Below, one piece after another: positions 4,804 through 30,286 of a stretch of DNA of 30,286 nucleotides; position 1 is the stretch's first letter, and each line of letters starts with the position of its first letter. Origin of the DNA: a virus. The notes beneath the pieces were generated by a model, which ran no database searches, was not told where the DNA came from, and worked only from the letters and a program-made list of their open reading frames with translations. Made by a program: the position numbers and the translations under genes. Location: the IMG/VR virus record IMGVR_UViG_3300034104_001013, positions 1-30,286 of that record. One strand, 5' to 3'.

Positions 4804-5257
4804 TCTTTTTTTGCTGCTCTAACAACTGGGCCAATTTGCCCTTAGCCGTTACTTCAGCAACCCCCAACTTACTGCGATCAATTGGCGTTAAGCCAAGCAA
4901 TGAAAGCAATTTAATAATGTCACCTTCAACGGTGTTTAACATTCCAAACAACGGGTTTGCATACGCATAGCCTTTGTCAGTGTAAAGAACAAAATCTGAT
5001 TGAGCCATCTTTGCCTGTAGCTCGTACTTCTTATCCATCTTTTCACAAAGTTCAATGAGCAACTTACTATCGCTGGTTGCAATCCACGGTGCCATCTCGC
5101 GCACATCAGCCCAAAGTTTTTTACCGTTGTCGCTCAAATGAATTGGCGCATCGCCTTTAATTTGTGGCAGTGCAATCACATTCTTTAGATCAGGCAGTTT
5201 CTGTTTGCCTGGGTTTCCGTTCTTGCGTTTAACTTCATTCGGTTTTGCTGCGCTCAC
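4796..5257 (-). CDS. terS: terminase small subunit, P27 family
   Basis: DNA-recognition subunit of the packaging complex (153 residues). The N-terminus (MSAAKPNEVKRKNGNPGKQK) is the basic RxNGNPGK segment seen in P27-type small terminases. LSDNGKKLWADVREM, a helical core and a C-terminal GLTPIDRSKLGV segment also fit the family. The start is a GTG at 5257 with only a weak ribosome site. Upstream is a gene-free stretch (5258-5482) with repeats that may be its binding site. The stop overlaps the large-subunit ATG. Confidence 0.9.
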   Translation of the reverse strand: MSAAKPNEVKRKNGNPGKQKLPDLKNVIALPQIKGDAPIHLSDNGKKLWADVREMAPWIATSDSKLLIELCEKMDKKYELQAKMAQSDFVLYTDKGYAYANPLFGMLNTVEGDIIKLLSLLGLTPIDRSKLGVAEVTAKGKLAQLLEQQKKNG

Positions 5258-5482
5258 TTGTTTCCATTCGCTCAGGAATCTAACGCCCCCGTTAGTTTCG
5301 ATTACCTTGCTTTTTCAAAATTCGGACATTTAAGACAAATCAGTTCAAACCAGTTCAAACCAGTTCAAACCCGCCACCCCCCACACATCGGCGATATGCG
5401 TTTGCAGGGCATCGGGGTTTATATCCCGCACGCTTACGCAACTTTATACCCGTACCCAGTAATGCCACGGGGGGGTGGTGTG
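5258..5482. other. non-coding gap upstream of terS; candidate cos/pac packaging region
   Basis: No convincing gene on either strand in 225 bases of an otherwise tightly packed genome. It holds a 6-base inverted repeat (CTAACG/CGTTAG, 5280-5295, loop CCCC), three exact tandem copies of CAGTTCAAAC (5341-5370), and two opposed C/G-rich blocks (CCACCCCCCACAC at 5374-5386 and GGGGGGGTGGTGTG near 5467-5481). It lies between HNH nuclease genes and the small terminase gene. In HK97-like and many actinophages this is where the cohesive-end or packaging-start site is found. The role is inference from position and repeats. Confidence 0.45.
5341..5370. repeat. three tandem copies of CAGTTCAAAC
   Basis: Three perfect 10-base direct repeats, one helical turn apart, 84 bases upstream of the terS start. 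Such phased repeats suit binding by an oligomeric small terminase, as in R-sites of cos regions. No protein-coding frame explains them. Confidence 0.85.
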
Positions 5483-5788
5483 CTATGAGTTACCTTTGCG
5501 ACTGTTGTGCATACGGCACAGGACACGAAGGTTACTAATCTCAAGGCGTAGATAGGGTGCATCACTTAAAGGAATGATGTGATCAACTGTTAAATCTTTA
5601 TTGGTGCAACCTGGTATTGAACAGAAAGGTTGCTGCTCTCTTAGTTGCTTGCTTAGCTTGTTCCAACTGTAGTCGTATCCTCGCTGGGTACGGGTGGGGC
5701 GACCTCTTTCTTTAATGCGCTGACAATCAACACATCTACTTGCTCGCACTACCTTGCCACATCCCGCACAAGGTCTAGGCAACACCAT
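5483..5788 (-). CDS. HNH endonuclease next to terminase
   Basis: A 101-residue nuclease from the ATG at 5788, chosen because GGAG lies 7 bases upstream; an earlier in-frame ATG at 5815 would overlap the previous gene by 41 bases. Order: an N-terminal zinc ribbon (C7, C10, C19, C22), a linker, then the HNH domain with C56/C61, LTVDHIIPL (H70), EISNLRVLCRMHNSRKG (N86, H94). HNH proteins encoded beside terminases assist cos cleavage and packaging in HK97-like phages. The position just before the candidate cos region fits that role here; the specific activity is inferred. Confidence 0.9.
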   Translation of the reverse strand: MVLPRPCAGCGKVVRASRCVDCQRIKERGRPTRTQRGYDYSWNKLSKQLREQQPFCSIPGCTNKDLTVDHIIPLSDAPYLRLEISNLRVLCRMHNSRKGNS

Positions 5789-6149
5789 CTGTTCGCTCCA
5801 AGTATTCAATGGCAACTGATAACAATGTTGTGCTATCTCTAAAGTTACCTAAGCCAATGTTGCAATGGTGACATAACAAACCGCGTATCTTCTTTGTTTC
5901 GTGGTTATGGTCAACACTTAACTCACGCTTAAACTCTGTTGCTGACACACCACATATTGCACACGCATTGTTTTGTTCAACTAACAACTTTGCATATTCG
6001 TATGTTGATAGGTTTGTTATCTTGCGTTCTGTATGTCTGCAATCAATGCAAACATTTCGTTTGCGGTTTCCTGTTCGTCTGTCTGCATGGTAAGCATCTA
6101 AATCTTTATCTATCTTGCATTTGCTACAGACTTGCGTATTACTCATCAT
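5775..6149 (-). CDS. recombination endonuclease VII-like HNH nuclease
   Basis: A 124-residue protein with two N-terminal CxxC pairs (C8/C11, C34/C37) and an endonuclease VII-type core: C63/C66, LSVDHNHETKKIRGLLCHHC (78-96, catalytic DHxH with C93/C96), then NIGLGNFRDS. T4 endonuclease VII resolves branched DNA such as Holliday junctions before packaging; relatives beside terminases are common in actinophages. ATGATG allows a start at 6149 or 6146. It overlaps the preceding small gene and the following HNH gene, so it belongs to the same transcript. Confidence 0.9.
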   Translation of the reverse strand: MMSNTQVCSKCKIDKDLDAYHADRRTGNRKRNVCIDCRHTERKITNLSTYEYAKLLVEQNNACAICGVSATEFKRELSVDHNHETKKIRGLLCHHCNIGLGNFRDSTTLLSVAIEYLERTDGVA

Positions 6150-6318
6150 CCTCTTGAACTGCCTCTAAATCTTCATTGACTACACAATAACGATTGTAAG
6201 CATCAAGAGTTGAGTTAGTTGCTCTTGTCAACAATGTTTCAATAGCATCAAATGACATCTGTTGATCTGTCATTATGTCTGTTGAGACATCACCAATTGT
6301 TACCGCAATACTTAGCAT
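6139..6318 (-). CDS. small hypothetical protein (59 aa)
   Basis: Begins MLSIAVTIGDVSTDIMTDQQ and ends with an acidic tail (LEAVQEDDE). Its ATG overlaps the stop of the previous small gene and its stop overlaps the endonuclease VII-like gene. No recognisable domain or membrane segment. Tight coupling on both sides supports it being real; the function is unknown. Confidence 0.6.
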   Translation of the reverse strand: MLSIAVTIGDVSTDIMTDQQMSFDAIETLLTRATNSTLDAYNRYCVVNEDLEAVQEDDE

Positions 6319-9880: not shown

Positions 9881-10010
9881 TTGTTCCCCCGATTACATCA
9901 TCAATTAAATTTTCACCCTTGTAGCAGTTGCAAGCAATTAGTTCTAAGCAATCACTGCAGATTGCGTGCGGTCCATCATCGTTTCCACAATTAACGCAGG
10001 AATCAGTCAT
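9873..10010 (-). CDS. cysteine-rich mini-protein (45 aa)
   Basis: Begins MTDSCVNCGN and contains C5/C8, C18/C21 and C27/C29, enough for a small zinc ribbon. It overlaps the methyltransferase C-terminal gene by 8 bases and the primase start by 8 bases. It is one of several tiny cysteine-rich genes in the early region. Function unknown. Confidence 0.65.
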   Translation of the reverse strand: MTDSCVNCGNDDGPHAICSDCLELIACNCYKGENLIDDVIGGTNE

Positions 10011-10410
10011 TTGCCACCATCCGCGAAATAATCCATTCGACAACAGGCACCGCTACCGCATTGCCCATTTGCTTATAGCGGTTTGAATCTGCCTGGCCAT
10101 CGGTCCAGTTGTCAGGAAATCCCTGAAGGCGCTCACATTCAACTGGTGTCAATCTACGCACAATTTCATCATTTGATTTTTGAATTGCTGGAACATTACC
10201 GCCACCAGTTCCCCATCTTTGAATAACTGTTTGCATAATTTCATCACCATAAATGCGCACATCATCAACGCGTGTTCCATCTAAAATCAAAACTGTTGCG
10301 TATGCCTCGCCGTTGTTATCCATTGCGTTCAATGTAGGTGTCACTACCCCTTCAATCCAAGATTCGTAATCTTCATTTGTTTGCGCCCTCTTGCTTTTCA
10401 CAAACCACAT
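10003..10410 (-). CDS. C5-cytosine DNA methyltransferase, C-terminal half (TRD, motifs IX-X)
   Basis: 135 residues from the ATG at 10410, chosen because GGGGG lies six bases upstream; an in-frame ATG at 10434 has no such site. It carries target-recognition-type sequence (TPTLNAMDNNG, RVDDVRIYG, RWGTGGGNVP). Motif IX follows as RRLTPVECERLQGFPDNWT and motif X as RYKQMGNAVAVPVVEWI. These complete the catalytic half encoded at 10507-11133. The two halves are in the same reading frame but separated by three stop codons. They may work as two subunits, as in M.AquI, or the enzyme may be broken. Confidence 0.88.
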   Translation of the reverse strand: MWFVKSKRAQTNEDYESWIEGVVTPTLNAMDNNGEAYATVLILDGTRVDDVRIYGDEIMQTVIQRWGTGGGNVPAIQKSNDEIVRRLTPVECERLQGFPDNWTDGQADSNRYKQMGNAVAVPVVEWIISRMVAND

Positions 10411-10474
10411 CGTGACCCCCTGAAATAAAATCATCCATTGAAATTAACATTTTGCAATTTGGACAAAAACCCAT
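10373..10474 (-). CDS. tiny zinc-finger-like ORF inside the methyltransferase gap (33 aa)
   Basis: Begins MGFCPNCKMLISMDD and has CxxC at residues 4-7 and a further cysteine near residue 25. It occupies the interval between the two methyltransferase halves in another frame and overlaps the start of the second half. It is similar in kind to the other cysteine-rich mini-proteins here, but it is too short to be certain. Confidence 0.4.
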   Translation of the reverse strand: MGFCPNCKMLISMDDFISGGHDVVCEKQEGANK

Positions 10475-10506
10475 TTGATTACTCCAATTCATTGTTGGCA
10501 ACTTTC

Positions 10507-11133
10507 TCAAGCGCTTCTTGAAGCTGAATTGGCAGTGTCTTTTCTCGCCTGCTCGCTCTCCGCAAAATACCTTGCGCGGCTTTCGGGGATAGCCAGTATT
10601 TCTTCAGGTGCTGCCCCTGTGTCTCCAAGACATCCGACAATGAACACTCTACGGCGGCGTTGGGGAACTCCGAAGTGTTGAGCATCAAGTACCCTGTAGG
10701 CAACGCGATACCCGCGTTCGACCAACGCTTCAAGAACAACGGCCATGTCTGCACCGCCGTTGGAGTTAAGTAAACCAGGGACATTTTCAAGGATAAAATT
10801 TTGCGCTCTTGTTTCGTCAAGCAATCGGCAGATTTCCCAGAAAAGTCCTGATCTAGCACCACCCAATCCTGCTCGTTTTCCAGCCACTGATAAATCTTGG
10901 CAGGGGAATCCACCTGTGATGATTCCATTTCTAGGTTCAAAGCCTGCTGCGATAAGTTGTTCACCTGTTACCCCCGATATATCGCCAAAAATTGTTGACT
11001 CAGGAAAATGTCGGCGTAACACATCCTGTGCTTTTTTATCAATCTCAACTGATGCAACTACTTTTACACCATTGCGTTCCAAAGCTAAATCAAAGCCACC
11101 AACACCAGCAAAAAGCGAAACGGCAGTTTTCAC
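10507..11133 (-). CDS. C5-cytosine DNA methyltransferase, N-terminal catalytic half
   Basis: 208 residues with motif I SLFAGVGGFDLALE, motif IV GGFPCQDLSVAGKRAGL (catalytic Cys in PCQ), motif VI ENVPGLL and motif VIII QRRRRVFIVG. It stops right after motif VIII, at the point where the variable region would begin. The start is best placed at GTG 11133, where GTGA overlaps the stop of the upstream zinc-ribbon gene by four bases. An ATG at 11148 would overlap more. Such enzymes methylate phage DNA at cytosine C5, often to evade restriction. Motifs IX and X are on the separate gene at 10003-10410. Confidence 0.92.
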   Translation of the reverse strand: MKTAVSLFAGVGGFDLALERNGVKVVASVEIDKKAQDVLRRHFPESTIFGDISGVTGEQLIAAGFEPRNGIITGGFPCQDLSVAGKRAGLGGARSGLFWEICRLLDETRAQNFILENVPGLLNSNGGADMAVVLEALVERGYRVAYRVLDAQHFGVPQRRRRVFIVGCLGDTGAAPEEILAIPESRARYFAESEQARKDTANSASRSA

Positions 11134-11300
11134 TTGCTGCCACCCCATCCATCACCTTTGAAAATTGTGCCACCCAGCGAATACTTGCGTTGCATTAACT
11201 TCTTCTTGCAACCTTCGCAGATGATTCTTTTTTCATCATCCATTTCAAAAAACACTTCAGCAATATGCCCGCAATCGCAAGTAAATTCATAAAAAGGCAT
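11130..11300 (-). CDS. FmdB-like zinc ribbon mini-protein (56 aa)
   Basis: The sequence opens MPFYEFTCDCGHIAEVFF, then CEGC (29-32), and ends FKGDGWGGSK. This matches the layout of FmdB-type zinc ribbons (MPxYxYxCxxCG, then CxxC, then FKGxGW) with one N-terminal cysteine pair spaced CxC. GGGGGAACAG precedes its ATG. The stop overlaps the methyltransferase GTG by four bases. FmdB proteins are putative regulators; the phage role is unknown. Confidence 0.75.
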   Translation of the reverse strand: MPFYEFTCDCGHIAEVFFEMDDEKRIICEGCKKKLMQRKYSLGGTIFKGDGWGGSK

Positions 11301-14976: not shown

Positions 14977-15510
14977 CTAGACTCGCTGAACTTCAATCTG
15001 AAAAGGTTTGGCGGTGTTGATGTCATATTTAGCGGCAATGGCAAGTGCCTTGAGGATTTCAGCCTTGCCGACATTCGGCACCGCCCCCGCCAATGCGCCA
15101 AGCGCGTAGGCACTGCCTGAGCCGACCCCATACAGGCCATCTTCAGATTGGGTAACGCTCAAGTCATCGCCAATTTCAAAGACATTACCAGCAAAGGCCA
15201 ACAGGTATGAGTAACTGATTCCTTCTTTGGTGTAATCAAATCCCTGCAACTTAAATGCTGCAATGATGCTTGGAATAATCTTTCGACCCATAAAGGTAAC
15301 TGGGTTAGTGCCATCGTAGGCGGGCGGTGTCCAGTTATAGGTGAGAATGTCACCTGGTCTGCAATCACCGCTAACTGCCAAAAGGTACTTCTTCAGCTTT
15401 ACGATCTTGGGCGTGCTGGGTGAGATGATGCGTTTATCCCCATCTGTCACCTGAGAGTCTGCCCCTAGAATGGCAAAATCAGGCCCCTGGAAGGCGATTA
15501 GCGTGGTCAT
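14977..15510 (-). CDS. proteasome/HslV-like Ntn-hydrolase peptidase
   Basis: 177 residues, the size of HslV or a proteasome beta core without a propeptide. MTTLIAFQGPDFAILGADSQ fits the fold: removing Met (or Met-Thr) exposes a Thr nucleophile, D18 lies in ADSQ, a Lys is near 35-39 (PKIVKLKKYLL), GVGSGSAYALGAL (128-140) is the proteasome GSGS-type loop, and YDINT (162-166) is the late Asp region. These are ATP-dependent or self-compartmentalised peptidases. No ATPase partner is encoded nearby, so it may use a host partner or act alone. It is the first gene of the leftward early operon and may be translated from a leaderless mRNA. Confidence 0.85.
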   Translation of the reverse strand: MTTLIAFQGPDFAILGADSQVTDGDKRIISPSTPKIVKLKKYLLAVSGDCRPGDILTYNWTPPAYDGTNPVTFMGRKIIPSIIAAFKLQGFDYTKEGISYSYLLAFAGNVFEIGDDLSVTQSEDGLYGVGSGSAYALGALAGAVPNVGKAEILKALAIAAKYDINTAKPFQIEVQRV

Positions 15511-15587
15511 TGGTCAAGTGTAGGGCAAGGCGTGAAAAGGCGTGGAAACCCTAGCAATTCCCCAATTTCTTCGAGTTCCCACGCCTT
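15511..15587 (-). promoter_or_regulatory. leftward early promoter with three AAGGCGTG sites
   Basis: Reading leftward, TACACT (15522-15517) lies six bases before the ATG at 15510. Transcription would then start at or next to the start codon, giving a leaderless mRNA; no Shine-Dalgarno is present. Upstream are AAGGCGTG (15527-15534), AAGGCGTGGAAAC (15537-15549) and an inverted copy GTTCCCACGCCTT (15575-15587; 12 of 13 bases match). These look like operator half-sites. No clear -35 hexamer is visible. Confidence 0.5.
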
Positions 15588-15648
15588 GATTTGAGCCTAA
15601 CACGCTCAAAAGCCGTTATCAAATTGTGACCAAATTAGGGGTTAAATG

Positions 15649-15678
15649 TTGCCTGTCTGTATATACAGGTGCTACCTT
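15649..15678 (+). promoter_or_regulatory. candidate rightward promoter with palindromic operator
   Basis: TTGCCT (15649-15654) and TACCTT (15673-15678) are 18 bases apart. The perfect 12-base palindrome CTGTATATACAG (15657-15668) lies in the spacer, where a repressor would block polymerase. A short GGGG-AACGG-CCCC hairpin (15688-15700) follows in the leader. The last gene of this operon encodes a ribbon-helix-helix-like protein that could bind here. Confidence 0.45.
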
Positions 15679-15717
15679 TATCTCATTGGGGAACGGCCCC
15701 TACAGAACGGATACAAA

Positions 15718-15954
15718 ATGAAGATATACCCAACAACTGAAAAAGTAACAATCAAGTGGTTTGTTTATGCAGGTGAAGAAAAGATTGCTCACAACGCAAC
15801 AATGCGTGGCACTTGGGGTTACGATGCAGAATGTTCTTGCGGATGGAAAACAACAACAGGTGGAGCAATTAAGTCATGTGTAATTGAAGAAGTTCAATCT
15901 CACAAATTTTCTGAACACAACTACACATACATTTCAGCAAAGGCAGGTGCGTAA
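15718..15954 (+). CDS. small protein with CxC motif, first of the rightward cassette (78 aa)
   Basis: The start is at ATG 15718 (MKIYPTTEKVTIKWFV); upstream in-frame ATG 15646 lies within the promoter region and is rejected. It contains AECSCGWKTTT (a CxC with Trp, like nucleic-acid or zinc-binding ribbons) followed by a Cys and two His (KSCVIEEVQSHKFSEHNY), so a single zinc site is possible. Only a weak ribosome site (CGGA). It ends in a TAATG overlap with the next gene. Confidence 0.7.
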   Translation: MKIYPTTEKVTIKWFVYAGEEKIAHNATMRGTWGYDAECSCGWKTTTGGAIKSCVIEEVQSHKFSEHNYTYISAKAGA

Positions 15955-16190
15955 TGAGCAATCGTTTATGGGTTGATGACAATGGATCGGTGCTATGCGA
16001 TGCACATTCAGGTACATATTTGCGAGCAGGATTTGAAGCAAACAATCAAGCAATTCAACACAAAACTCCACTTGGAACTTGGTGCGCGTATTACACAAAC
16101 CTTCTTGGTGGAAAAGATTTAGTGTGTGAAGTTTGTGTTCCGTGGAACTCACCCAATCATCCTTACAATCAAATGAATGCAGGTGCATAA
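15954..16190 (+). CDS. small putative zinc protein (78 aa)
   Basis: Begins MSNRLWVDDNGSVLCDAHSG. It has C15 and H18 near the N-terminus and VCEVC (58-62) further on, spaced as two halves of a zinc ribbon. Linked by one-base overlaps to both neighbours. Unknown function. Confidence 0.65.
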   Translation: MSNRLWVDDNGSVLCDAHSGTYLRAGFEANNQAIQHKTPLGTWCAYYTNLLGGKDLVCEVCVPWNSPNHPYNQMNAGA

Positions 16191-16318
16191 TGAAAATTAA
16201 AGATGTTGCTGATTACCATTTAGAGCAAGCAAAAGAAGCAAACTCTTGCAATGAACGCCAGCAAGAGGAATATCACCTTGAGATGCTTTCAGCATTACTT
16301 GAAGAAATGGGTGAATAA
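16190..16318 (+). CDS. small acidic helical protein (42 aa)
   Basis: Begins MKIKDVADYHLEQAKEANSC and ends LEMLSALLEEMGE. It is predicted to be all helix, with many Glu and Gln residues. TAATG overlaps at both ends. Small acidic proteins of this kind can be DNA mimics or inhibitors, but nothing specific is recognisable. Confidence 0.6.
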   Translation: MKIKDVADYHLEQAKEANSCNERQQEEYHLEMLSALLEEMGE

Positions 16319-16440
16319 TGTTTTCAACCAACTACACCTGCAAGTGCAATGCCTGCAAAGAAACATTTGAATCAGTTATGAAAGTCAACCTATGCCTGCC
16401 TTGCTTTGAGGCATACCTAGCGAATTTGGAGAATAACTAA
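16318..16440 (+). CDS. zinc-ribbon mini-protein (40 aa)
   Basis: MFSTNYTCKCNACKETFESV carries CxCxxC and a later CLPC, a four-cysteine zinc ribbon like the rubredoxin-type knuckle of small transcription factors. The start overlaps the previous stop by one base, and the next ATG follows the stop directly. Confidence 0.6.
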   Translation: MFSTNYTCKCNACKETFESVMKVNLCLPCFEAYLANLENN

Positions 16441-16614
16441 ATGGGTGCTATGAAATCTTTGGTAATTGATATTGCTGACACTATGTATCAAATTAGCCGT
16501 GATCTGAACGAAGCAAGTGAATCAGGCGATTTTGATGAGATGAAGCAATCACTTCGCAGGGCAATTGTGAATTCTGCCCTGACCATTGCCCACATTGAAG
16601 AATTGGAGCGTTAA
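16441..16614 (+). CDS. small helical protein (57 aa)
   Basis: Begins MGAMKSLVIDIADTMYQISR and ends TIAHIEELER. Amphipathic helices without cysteines or membrane segments. It follows the previous stop with no gap; GGAG within the preceding codons (TTTGGAGAATAACTAA) is a ribosome site. Unknown function. Confidence 0.6.
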   Translation: MGAMKSLVIDIADTMYQISRDLNEASESGDFDEMKQSLRRAIVNSALTIAHIEELER

Positions 16615-16615
16615 G

Positions 16616-16780
16616 ATGATTACAAAGCGTGGCAAGCGTGTACGAGCAGTTGCAATTGCAGTTGGCCTAATCGTCATTTGGCAGGTTGCCAGCAATCTTT
16701 GGTGGGTTGGCATTGATGCACCTAGCGCTGAGTTTCTTGGCTGGTGTTGGGGTTCAATGAATGAGTGCGTGGTTCTATGA
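16616..16780 (+). CDS. small single-pass membrane protein (54 aa)
   Basis: MITKRGKRVRAVAIAVGLIV continues into IWQVASNLWWVGI. The basic N-terminus followed by one hydrophobic helix predicts an inner-membrane protein with the N-terminus inside, or an uncleaved signal. GGAG lies about 8 bases upstream. The stop overlaps the last gene of the cassette by four bases. Confidence 0.6.
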   Translation: MITKRGKRVRAVAIAVGLIVIWQVASNLWWVGIDAPSAEFLGWCWGSMNECVVL

Positions 16781-16902
16781 CCCCAGTTAGATCAATTCGA
16801 GTTGATGCCGATTTGTGGCATTTGGCATTAGAAAAAGCGCGAAATGAAGGCACCACCGCCACCGCAATCATCATTCAAGCATTGCGTGAATACATCAAGT
16901 AA
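16777..16902 (+). CDS. ribbon-helix-helix-like DNA-binding protein (41 aa)
   Basis: MTPVRSIRVDADLWHLALEK, then ARNEGTTATAIIIQALREYI. A short strand (RSIRVD) followed by two helices with a turn at NEGTTAT is the Arc/CopG/MetJ layout, at minimal length. Such proteins are usually autoregulators. The best candidate site is the palindrome at 15657-15668 in the promoter of its own operon. It ends 12 bases before the shared terminator. Confidence 0.7.
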   Translation: MTPVRSIRVDADLWHLALEKARNEGTTATAIIIQALREYIK

Positions 16903-16913
16903 TTAAAGAAACG

Positions 16914-16949
16914 AAAAACCCCCCGCAGGAACGGCTGCAGGGGGTTTTT
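16914..16949. terminator. bidirectional intrinsic terminator
   Basis: AAAAACCCCC (16914-16923) pairs with GGGGGTTTTT (16940-16949). After one C/A mismatch, GCAG/CTGC extends the stem, with a six-base loop. U-runs follow in both directions, so it ends the rightward cassette (16902) and the leftward transcript (16978), which converge here. Confidence 0.93.
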
Positions 16950-16977
16950 CTATGGGGGCGTTTTAGCGCCTGAAGTC

Positions 16978-28644: not shown

Positions 28645-29079
28645 TTACGGTGTAATTGATTTTGTAATTGGACCTGAAATTGGCCAAGTTGCAGAAACCG
28701 TGGCCAACTCGCCCACGGCACCTGAAACGGCTTGCCATTCTGCTACAAGCGCGTTGAAGGTAAATTTTGGATTGCTTGCGCTAACCGTAGTGTTAACTGG
28801 GCGAATTTCCATTGCTGCAATCAAACCAACAGTTCCATTTGTTGTGGTAGTTCCATTGATTAGTTCTTCAAGCGCATTGTCTGCATAATCCTGGTTGAAC
28901 TCAATTGTAACTGAGTTATCAGCAAGACCAGCAACACGGGTACGAGCTGCACCTGTAGTTGAAATACCCGTGGTGTCAATAACATCATAACTTGTTGCTA
29001 AACTTACTGAGGTCACATATTGCGAAATGTCGTTACTTGCAAATACAACATAAGCATTTGTTAATACTAAGCGTGGCAT
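28645..29079 (-). CDS. major tail protein-like, paralogue B (144 aa)
   Basis: Shares nearly its whole layout with the gene upstream: RLVLTNAYVVFASNDISQYV, TSVSLATSYDVIDTTGISTT, AARTRVAGLADNSVTIEFNQ and EWQAVSGAVGELATVSATWP. Tail-tube fold is inferred from position before the chaperone and from the beta-rich sequence. It could be a second tube subunit or a tube/tip decoration. Confidence 0.75.
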   Translation of the reverse strand: MPRLVLTNAYVVFASNDISQYVTSVSLATSYDVIDTTGISTTGAARTRVAGLADNSVTIEFNQDYADNALEELINGTTTTNGTVGLIAAMEIRPVNTTVSASNPKFTFNALVAEWQAVSGAVGELATVSATWPISGPITKSITP

Positions 29080-29082
29080 CTA

Positions 29083-29502
29083 TTAAACCGCCTTTGTGAT
29101 TACGCCTGAGATCGGCCAAGTTGCAGAAATCGTGGCTAACTCACCAACGGCACCTGAAACGGCTTGCCACTCTGAAACAACCGCAGAAAAACTATAGCTT
29201 GGGTTGCTTGCACCTACTGCTGCTGATGTTGGCTTTACTACACAAGTTACATTTGTTCCAACAAGTGATGAACCAACTGCATTAATTGTTACTTCAGGTG
29301 CAGATGTTGCATAATCTTGATTAAATTCAAATGTAACTGAGTTATCAGCAAGGCCAGCAACACGGGTACGCGCCCCTGCTGAGGACATACCTGTTGTGTC
29401 AACCACATCTTCGCTAGTTGAAAGTGCCACGCTCGTAATAAACTCGCTGAGATTGATGCCGTTGATTACAACTGAAGCATCTGTTAGGACTATACGGGCC
29501 AT
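29083..29502 (-). CDS. major tail protein-like, paralogue A (139 aa)
   Basis: MARIVLTDASVVINGINLSE, VALSTSEDVVDTTGMSSAG, ARTRVAGLADNSVTFEFNQD and SEWQAVSGAVGELATISATW, ending GVITKAV. Directly duplicated by the next gene with clear DNA-level similarity in the 3' third. One of the pair should be the tail tube subunit. GAGGAAAC gives a ribosome site within the previous gene. Confidence 0.78.
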   Translation of the reverse strand: MARIVLTDASVVINGINLSEFITSVALSTSEDVVDTTGMSSAGARTRVAGLADNSVTFEFNQDYATSAPEVTINAVGSSLVGTNVTCVVKPTSAAVGASNPSYSFSAVVSEWQAVSGAVGELATISATWPISGVITKAV

Positions 29503-29678: not shown

Positions 29679-30077
29679 TTATCCCCAAACGGTGAGACGG
29701 TAACGGTATGAAAGAAATTCAATATCACCTGATGCGTAATTGCCCGCTTCGGCTGATGTGACACGCAAAGTGTTGCAAGCACCACCAAGAGTTAGATCAG
29801 ATTCAATTGCTGCCTTGATTGAGTAAGCCCCACTGCCTGCAAGGTACTTATCAAGTTCATTTTGGCCTGAACGCTCTGTAAAGCGCTGAACCAAAACAAT
29901 AATATCTAAATTTGCCTGGTCTAAACCACGGGCATTATTCAAATCAAAAGTAAAATCTAACTGACCAACAATGGCTGCTGGTGCAACTGGCACCGTAGGG
30001 ATTAGTTCATAAACGCGCATCCCTTTAATAGTCTCTAGGTTGGCTTTTAAGCCGTTTCTAACCTCACTTGGCAACAT
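29679..30077 (-). CDS. tail terminator / head-tail completion protein
   Basis: 132 residues: LPSEVRNGLKANLETIKGMR, YELIPTVPVAPAAIVGQLDF, a beta strand (LDIIVLVQRFTERSGQNELD), KYLAGSGAYSIKAAIESDLT and a final YRYRLTVWG. This is the usual layout of actinophage tail-terminator-type proteins (I-G-V-P-x-P-A ... L-x-P-G-SIKxAI). The ATG overlaps the connector stop by one base. Confidence 0.72.
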   Translation of the reverse strand: MLPSEVRNGLKANLETIKGMRVYELIPTVPVAPAAIVGQLDFTFDLNNARGLDQANLDIIVLVQRFTERSGQNELDKYLAGSGAYSIKAAIESDLTLGGACNTLRVTSAEAGNYASGDIEFLSYRYRLTVWG

Positions 30078-30286
30078 TATACGGCCAAGCCATTGTTCTT
30101 GCGTAAGGGGCGCAGTAGTGCCTCAACATCGGCATCTAGTTTTGCAGCCAAGCGCACTGTTCCTAAATCTGTGTTACCAGCAATGCCAAATGGTGATTGG
30201 TTACGAAGAAACAGGCGTGATGCCTGAATCTTTGCTGCAGTCTTTACCTCATAAGGCACTTCAGACCAGCCAAAAACACCACGAAC
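30077..30286 (-). CDS. head-tail connector, C-terminal part (cut by window edge)
   Basis: The frame is open to the window edge: RGVFGWSEVPYEVKTAAKIQ, then ASRLFLRNQSPFGIAG and ALLRPLRKNNGLAV. The GWxxVPxxVKxAxxxxAxRLxxRxxSPFG pattern is the C-terminal part of gp6/gp15-type connectors in actinophages. A GTG at 30259 could be called as a start, but the family match extends upstream of it, so the gene is 5'-truncated by the window. Confidence 0.8.
   Translation of the reverse strand, partial: VRGVFGWSEVPYEVKTAAKIQASRLFLRNQSPFGIAGNTDLGTVRLAAKLDADVEALLRPLRKNNGLAV

Follow-up and report, generated by a model that had tools for sequence, protein, structure and literature searches.

A mini-gene cassette with interchangeable slots and a putative self-repressing regulator in a likely phage of freshwater actinobacteria

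The IMG/VR virus record IMGVR_UViG_3300034104_001013 (30,286 bases, the whole of which was analysed and is called the window) carries a rightward cassette of seven mini-genes, g1 to g7, at 15718-16902. From comparison with its relatives the cassette is read, with moderate confidence, as a self-limiting accessory operon that acts early and has plug-in slots, and which would be repressed by the product of its own last gene, the ribbon-helix-helix (RHH) regulator g7. A preliminary description had recognised the cassette from this one sequence; comparison points beyond that reading to interchangeable slots, a DNA joint shared between slot genes, a co-varying leader hairpin and an RHH/operator pair that appears to recur across actinophages.

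Mini-genes, changing slots and a constant frame

The seven plus-strand open reading frames (ORFs) follow one another with junction offsets of -1, -1, -1, 0, +1 and -4, confirming both the coordinates and the overlaps given in the preliminary description. When a chain is defined by ORFs of at least 38 amino acids (aa) with an ATG start and an offset of -4, -1, 0 or +1, the plus strand of the window holds a chain of seven, whereas the longest chain that arose when the window was shuffled 200 times was three. Every one of the 33 ORFs that reach 110 aa or more is coded on the minus strand, in agreement with the earlier view of the cassette as the sole plus-strand block.

Median ratios of nonsynonymous to synonymous substitution (dN/dS) among relatives were 0.22 for g2, 0.12 for g3, 0.09 for g4 and 0.20 for each of g5, g6 and g7, with a value of 0.63 for g1, for which there were few sequences. 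On this comparison g1-g7 are real genes under purifying selection, because the ratios lie well below 1; the preliminary description had set a value near 1 as the one that would count against conserved reading frames. It had also recognised no family beyond the RHH fold, and six of the seven proteins indeed had no informative match in Pfam, NCBIfam, PHROGs or PADLOC, RHH being the sole hit. The AlphaFold2 (AF2) model of g2 was weak (predicted local distance difference test, pLDDT, 66) and too poor for structure search.

Viral loci were recovered by searches with g2 (27 loci), g6 (158, of which 80 were kept) and g7 (208, of which 80 were kept). The comparison set comprised 62 distinct, complete and de-duplicated cassettes. 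The leader is open in frame, and first starts were therefore fixed by the position of the leader hairpin before clustering. The contigs are metagenomic and partly redundant, and the clustering by BLAST, which possibly over-splits families, gave 62 gene families across the 62 cassettes, including 22 singletons.

The elements constant across the set were the host-type promoter, the palindrome in its spacer, the 5' leader hairpin, the distal genes g4-g7 and the terminator. The region from leader to g4 drew its genes from dozens of mini-gene families unrelated to one another, with 25 families occupying slot 1, directly after the leader. Presence was 51/62 for g4, 53/62 for g5 and 61/62 for both g6 and g7, the unbiased counts being those of g4 and g5 only, as g6 and g7 served as search baits. 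Of the 357 junction offsets in the set, 347 fell within -4 to +2. As shown by this comparison of sequences, the proximal genes are interchangeable between phages and the distal g4-g7 are nearly constant.

Paired cysteine/histidine knuckles were present in most members of 19 of the 62 families, compared with 4.3 expected after shuffling, and mini zinc ribbons are therefore a favoured content. Some slot genes also occur outside the cassette. In three loci (L010, at 5001-6168, L012 and L014) g2 is next to a transglycosylase-like gene, in another mini-gene string that lacks g7 and belongs to a co-directional replication operon, which suggests that slot genes move between unlike phages. A g2 homologue of about 41% identity is present in prophages of M. 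abscessus and M. chelonae (L169 4001-4201, prophiFSAT01-1 gp85), followed by an ADP-ribosyl glycohydrolase gene. In the constant part, g6 has two invariant cysteines and is carried by nearly every cassette; judging from its size and topology, a role as a superinfection-exclusion factor might be guessed.

The DNA joint between slot genes

Slot genes are connected by a short joint with the consensus AAAGGYAGGTGCATAATG, which codes for a K[AV]GA-stop tail and includes the ribosome site AGGTG as well as the ATG of the following gene, in a TAATG overlap. The window holds two near-copies with 1-2 mismatches, at g1/g2 and g2/g3 (core AGGTGCRTAATG), and none elsewhere. Compared between different families, the last dozen bases of slot genes that end in a -1 overlap had a mean identity of 57%, the value for a control site 45 nt further upstream being 26%. 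The 109 distinct joint contexts connect 60 upstream with 71 downstream families, with an open frame upstream in 108 and downstream in 106 of them. No homologue of g2 or g4-g7 was present at 70 of 114 newly fetched joint loci, indicating that the joint extends beyond the cassette.

Counted as exact 18-mers in one collection, with contig relatedness ignored, the joint occurred in at least 120 viral contigs, compared with 5 for a synonym coding for the same peptide with the stronger AGGAG site and 8 for a purine variant. Peptide selection and ribosome-site strength alone fail to account for this spread; descent by repeated exchange appears to explain it, with translational coupling perhaps adding to it. 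An alternative is that the joint was produced by selection for efficient stop/restart translation alone, with no exchange. The placement of AGGTG upstream of the ATG, the overlapping TAATG and the occurrence of looser variants agree with this alternative, and the low counts of both the synonym with the stronger site and the purine variant speak against it; it is given an appreciable chance, although one well short of even.

In being short repeated DNA at the starts of unrelated small genes, the joint resembles the start-associated sequences (SAS) of cluster K mycobacteriophages, in which GGGATAGGAGCCC precedes many starts in a genome (PMC3203893). Its sequence is a different one, it also takes in the end of the gene before it, with stop codon and C-terminal tail, and a cassette has at most about three copies. 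Short conserved boundary sequences have been proposed for phage mosaicism (PMC3029335), and the joint likewise offers short identity at gene borders that could guide recombination, with the difference that here a single joint sequence connects all of the upstream and downstream families counted above.

A more far-reaching and rather doubtful proposal is that of an integrase-free phage gene-cassette system, in which the 18-bp joint would be the homology arm by which phage recombination moves counter-defence mini-genes into and out of a fixed expression frame under an RHH repressor with the operator TGTANNTACA. Such a system would be unlike integron cassettes, as PHROG scans of the window gave no integrase and the joint, being 18 bases long and lying partly within coding sequence, is no attC-like site.

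The last gene, its predicted operator and the transcript ends

The preliminary description had called the last gene RHH-like, which profile and structure comparisons bear out. g7 matched the Arc-like repressor profile phrog_6506 (E 3.5e-7) and AvtR of the archaeal virus AFV6 (E 1e-5), with a value of 0.067 for Pfam RHH_1 that falls short of the cut-off. Its AF2 model (pLDDT 90) has helices at 11-24 and 28-40; the RHH strand forms in the dimer only and is outside the model. Foldseek gave probabilities of 0.93-0.99 to Rv0298, CopASO, Arc and CopG (TMq 0.72 for Arc and 0.69 for CopG). By profile and modelled fold, g7 is an RHH protein.

The palindrome CTGTATATACAG within the promoter spacer is the single match in the window when up to two mismatches are allowed. 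One chance match would be unsurprising, and its meaning therefore depends on the relatives, in which the palindrome TGTATATACA lies within the promoter spacer of the cassettes. LexA sites have the form CTGT-N8-ACAG, or CGAAC-N4-GTTCG in actinobacteria, and an SOS box was rejected for CTGTATATACAG on account of the different spacing.

Further evidence came from a distant set of 31 loci picked solely by similarity to distant g7 homologues, isolate phages included, which are mostly of 60-75% GC and lie outside the freshwater clade; a narrow RHH alignment was used for the profile scan. In the upstream zone, defined as the 650 nt before each of the 31 RHH genes, GTANNTAC had 29 copies in 20 kb, compared with 6 in the other 171 kb (P 2e-36), and ranked first of all 64 NNN..NNN palindromes, the runner-up having P 1e-4. 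Typically, TTGAC is followed after 2-5 nt by GTATATAC, often with another copy 22-24 nt further along, and then by one or two ORFs of about 50-114 aa and the RHH gene. An example among isolates is Mycobacterium phage Majeke (host M. smegmatis), which has a related RHH protein and two GGTATATACC boxes in its gp57-gp56-gp55 region (L168). The palindrome in its own promoter is accordingly placed here as a comparative prediction, being proposed as the operator of g7.

In 39 of the 45 distinct relatives, promoter elements of the form TTGNNN-18-TANNNT lie on either side of the palindrome, where shuffled flanks would give 0.5, and this comparison predicts that a host-type promoter drives the cassette. 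The promoter with palindrome and the terminator read in the preliminary description were both recovered. The leader hairpin lies about 15-16 nt upstream of the first gene, whichever gene fills slot 1. In the window alone this hairpin is weak (z -0.7), its support coming from the comparison of 45 distinct leaders, which had a mean stem of 7.2 pairs, compared with 5.4 when the 3' arms were permuted (2000 permutations, maximum 6.3) and 2.4 when the letters were shuffled. The stems differ (TTATTGGGGG/CTCCCAATAG, ATTGAAGA/TCTTCAAT, TTATTGGAAA/TTTCCAATAG and TTGTAGG/CCTACAA) and the AACG loop core is constant.

The terminator hairpin was called on the minus strand and is symmetric, so that it is able to terminate the cassette too. 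Its GAACGG loop was invariant in 36 cassettes with 7 different stems and, taken with the loop core of the leader, gives one loop motif at both transcript ends. Rfam returned sub-threshold hits only, on the terminator hairpin. The GAACGG loop may be a protein- or RNA-binding loop. Hairpins sharing it were also seen in relatives at L065 3260-3285, L070 1707-1732 and L003 4305-4324, and primase-linked relatives have an extra hairpin, GCAAGGTCAG(gaacgg)CTGATCTTGC, upstream of the cassette.

The divergent region between the cassette and the leftward operon contains two other repeats. A conserved 11-bp direct repeat at 15615-15636 (GTTATCAAATT/GTGACCAAATT, with GTTATCAAATCGTTACCAAAA in many relatives) is a possible second regulator site or leftward promoter. 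In the minus-strand leader, a 13-nt inverted repeat at 15537-15587 (AAGGCGTGGAAAC/GTTCCCACGCCTT), upstream of the leftward operon and followed by TTTTC on the minus strand, looks like a leader hairpin or attenuator. It could be argued that g7 acts on this region as a lysis-lysogeny or global switch, controlling the leftward operon too, with the mini-genes being secondary. The operator does lie within the 207 bp that must also house the leftward promoter, together with the conserved direct repeat and the inverted repeat. Such a switch is nevertheless improbable, as the operator is in the spacer of the rightward promoter and nowhere else in the window, and no integrase or lysogeny repressor was found in PHROG scans of nearly all window ORFs.

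Table 1. Positions of the cassette genes, joints and predicted control elements in the window
Feature	Position	Strand	Description
-35 element TTGCCT	15649-15654	+	promoter geometry in relatives
Palindrome CTGTATATACAG, putative g7 operator	15657-15668	.	inside 18-bp promoter spacer
-10 element TACCTT (TANNNT type)	15673-15678	+	promoter geometry in relatives
5' leader hairpin, GGGG-AACGG-CCCC core	15687-15702	+	near predicted transcript 5' end
g1, slot gene	15718-15954	+	78 aa, CxC, W/H rich
Joint AAGGCAGGTGCGTAATG	15940-15956	+	g1 end (KAGA-stop), ribosome site, g2 start
g2, slot gene	15954-16190	+	78 aa, conserved C15/H18/C58/C61, zinc-ribbon-like
Second joint AATGCAGGTGCATAATG	16176-16192	+	g2 end, g3 start
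g3, mobile slot gene	16190-16318	+	42 aa, helical; before or after g2 in relatives
g4, constant part	16318-16440	+	40 aa, zinc-ribbon-like
g5, constant part	16441-16614	+	57 aa, helical
g6, constant part	16616-16780	+	54 aa, one transmembrane helix, invariant NLWWVG...GWCWGSM..C motif
g7, RHH (Arc/CopG-type) regulator	16777-16902	+	41 aa
Terminator hairpin, loop GAACGG	16913-16950	.	strong hairpin with A- and T-tracts

Proposed operation, precedents and genome setting

On entry of the phage, host RNA polymerase would make a burst of short mRNA, and the tiny proteins translated from it (zinc ribbons, helical proteins and one membrane protein) would disarm or redirect the host. The last protein translated, g7, would dimerise, bind TGTATATACA between the -35 and -10 elements and shut the promoter, in parallel with the Aca proteins of acr-aca operons. 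Co-infecting phages would swap slot genes where they share identical sequence, at the boundary of leader and start and at the TAATG joint, an arrangement that would preserve frame, ribosome site and coupling for any inserted gene. The early timing suggested in the preliminary description is supported indirectly, by the host-type promoter and by a sister lineage in which g6-g7 are followed by a primase-polymerase gene that g7 overlaps by 4 nt, an overlap that connects the cassette with genes of early replication. The slot proteins would presumably have an anti-host or counter-defence role.

Each part of this proposal has precedent, in acr-aca autoregulation, RHH repressors, SAS and boundary sequences; the literature searched contained no case of an RHH-governed plug-in operon combined with a standard coding joint. 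The promoters of acr-aca operons have one or two inverted repeats, one of which is always in the core promoter, and the regulators Aca1-10 are all helix-turn-helix (HTH) proteins (PMC9410906). The cassette is similar in being a short operon in which small variable genes precede a small DNA-binding regulator, and in having an inverted repeat inside the core promoter, often with a second nearby. It differs in its RHH regulator, which is outside the HTH Aca families, in the standard DNA joint linking its slots and in its conserved leader hairpin, and no Acr homologue was found among the cassette proteins in Pfam, NCBIfam or PHROGs. The 41-aa beta-alpha-alpha fold of g7 is like that of the Arc, CopG and omega repressors and AvtR of AFV6, from which g7 differs in being last in a plug-in operon and in its operator core GTATATAC; no literature linking GTATATAC to an RHH protein was found. 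Host-takeover modules, for example in phage SPO1, are dense arrays of tiny early genes of unknown fold. The cassette is likewise a dense array of tiny genes, but it measures about 1.2 kb, an RHH protein apparently serves as its autoregulator, and its content is exchanged one slot at a time.

A role in host conflict has to be weighed against the possibility that the mini-genes are metabolic or structural accessory genes, tightly packed because the genome is small and varying by drift. The slot proteins have no functional family match in the four collections searched, as this possibility would allow, but it too is given a low probability: turnover is concentrated in the cassette beside a constant distal block, the families are under purifying selection, and the cassette has its own promoter, operator and terminator. 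That g7 is the autoregulating antitoxin of a type II module with its neighbour g5 or g6 as toxin is very improbable, because, although its best structural matches include the RHH antitoxins Rv0298 and CopASO, it is essentially a DNA-binding domain without a toxin-binding tail, no toxin family was found among its neighbours (Pfam, PHROGs, NCBIfam and PADLOC), and the gene upstream of the RHH gene varies by locus, belonging to unrelated families in the distant set.

Several points weigh against the self-limiting operon as proposed. The slot proteins match none of the known anti-defence families, the PADLOC models being of defence rather than counter-defence. GTANNTAC is absent upstream at 12 of the 31 distant RHH loci, and the predicted operator is partly clade-specific, because Gordonia phage GMA1 (L170) has another inverted repeat, GCGCGT...ACGCGC, at the equivalent position and the primase-linked lineage has the GTATKGAY-type boxes GTATTGAC and GTATGGAT in place of GTANNTAC. 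Finally, recombination need not be the only force that spread the joint, since selection for coupling could have done so too.

The rest of the window encodes a tailed-actinophage gene set (terminase, portal, head protease, major tail proteins and collagen-like tail fibre) together with a DNA primase/polymerase, a Cas4-like exonuclease, RusA, WhiB, an HslV/proteasome-like hydrolase and a glycosyltransferase. The best isolate match of the portal protein was Pontimonas phage phiPsal1 (37% identity), those of the primase/polymerase were mainly Arthrobacter phages, and no isolate phage matched the window by megablast. The GC content of about 45% and the presence of WhiB are consistent with two cultured 'Ca. 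Nanopelagicales' phages (PMC10202952). The window probably comes from a phage of freshwater actinobacteria; no relative of g6 was found among 84,980 GTDB species genomes, so that the prophage route gave no host assignment.

The leftward operon opens with the HslV/proteasome-like hydrolase gene (14977-15510, minus strand; phrog_1040, E 3e-24, and Pfam Proteasome). Also on the minus strand are a DNA methyltransferase apparently in two ORFs, which match successive parts of phrog_116 (10003-11148), and an adjacent pair of major tail protein genes, each matching phrog_4574, which are tandem paralogues (28645-29502). The head protease lies at the left end (1-223) and the head-tail connector genes at the right end (30077-30286), and no separate major capsid gene was found in the window; the record represents either a fragment or a circularly permuted genome with a protease-capsid fusion.

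Freshwater actinobacterial phages occur in abundance, and for most of their small genes no function has been assigned. The cassette suggests that a large reservoir of candidate anti-host or counter-defence proteins is still unexplored, and it provides two searchable signatures for them, the RHH gene with the GTANNTAC operator and the KAGA/KVGA-TAATG joint. Both locate plug-in mini-genes through their position and not through homology, in the way that aca genes served to find anti-CRISPRs. The related RHH protein of Majeke, with its two boxes, makes the regulator testable in a cultured system. A specific short joint visibly linking unrelated genes is rare, and through it the boundary-sequence idea of phage mosaicism becomes directly testable. 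If the gene-cassette system proves true, joint and operator together would give a handle for anti-defence genes across actinophages.
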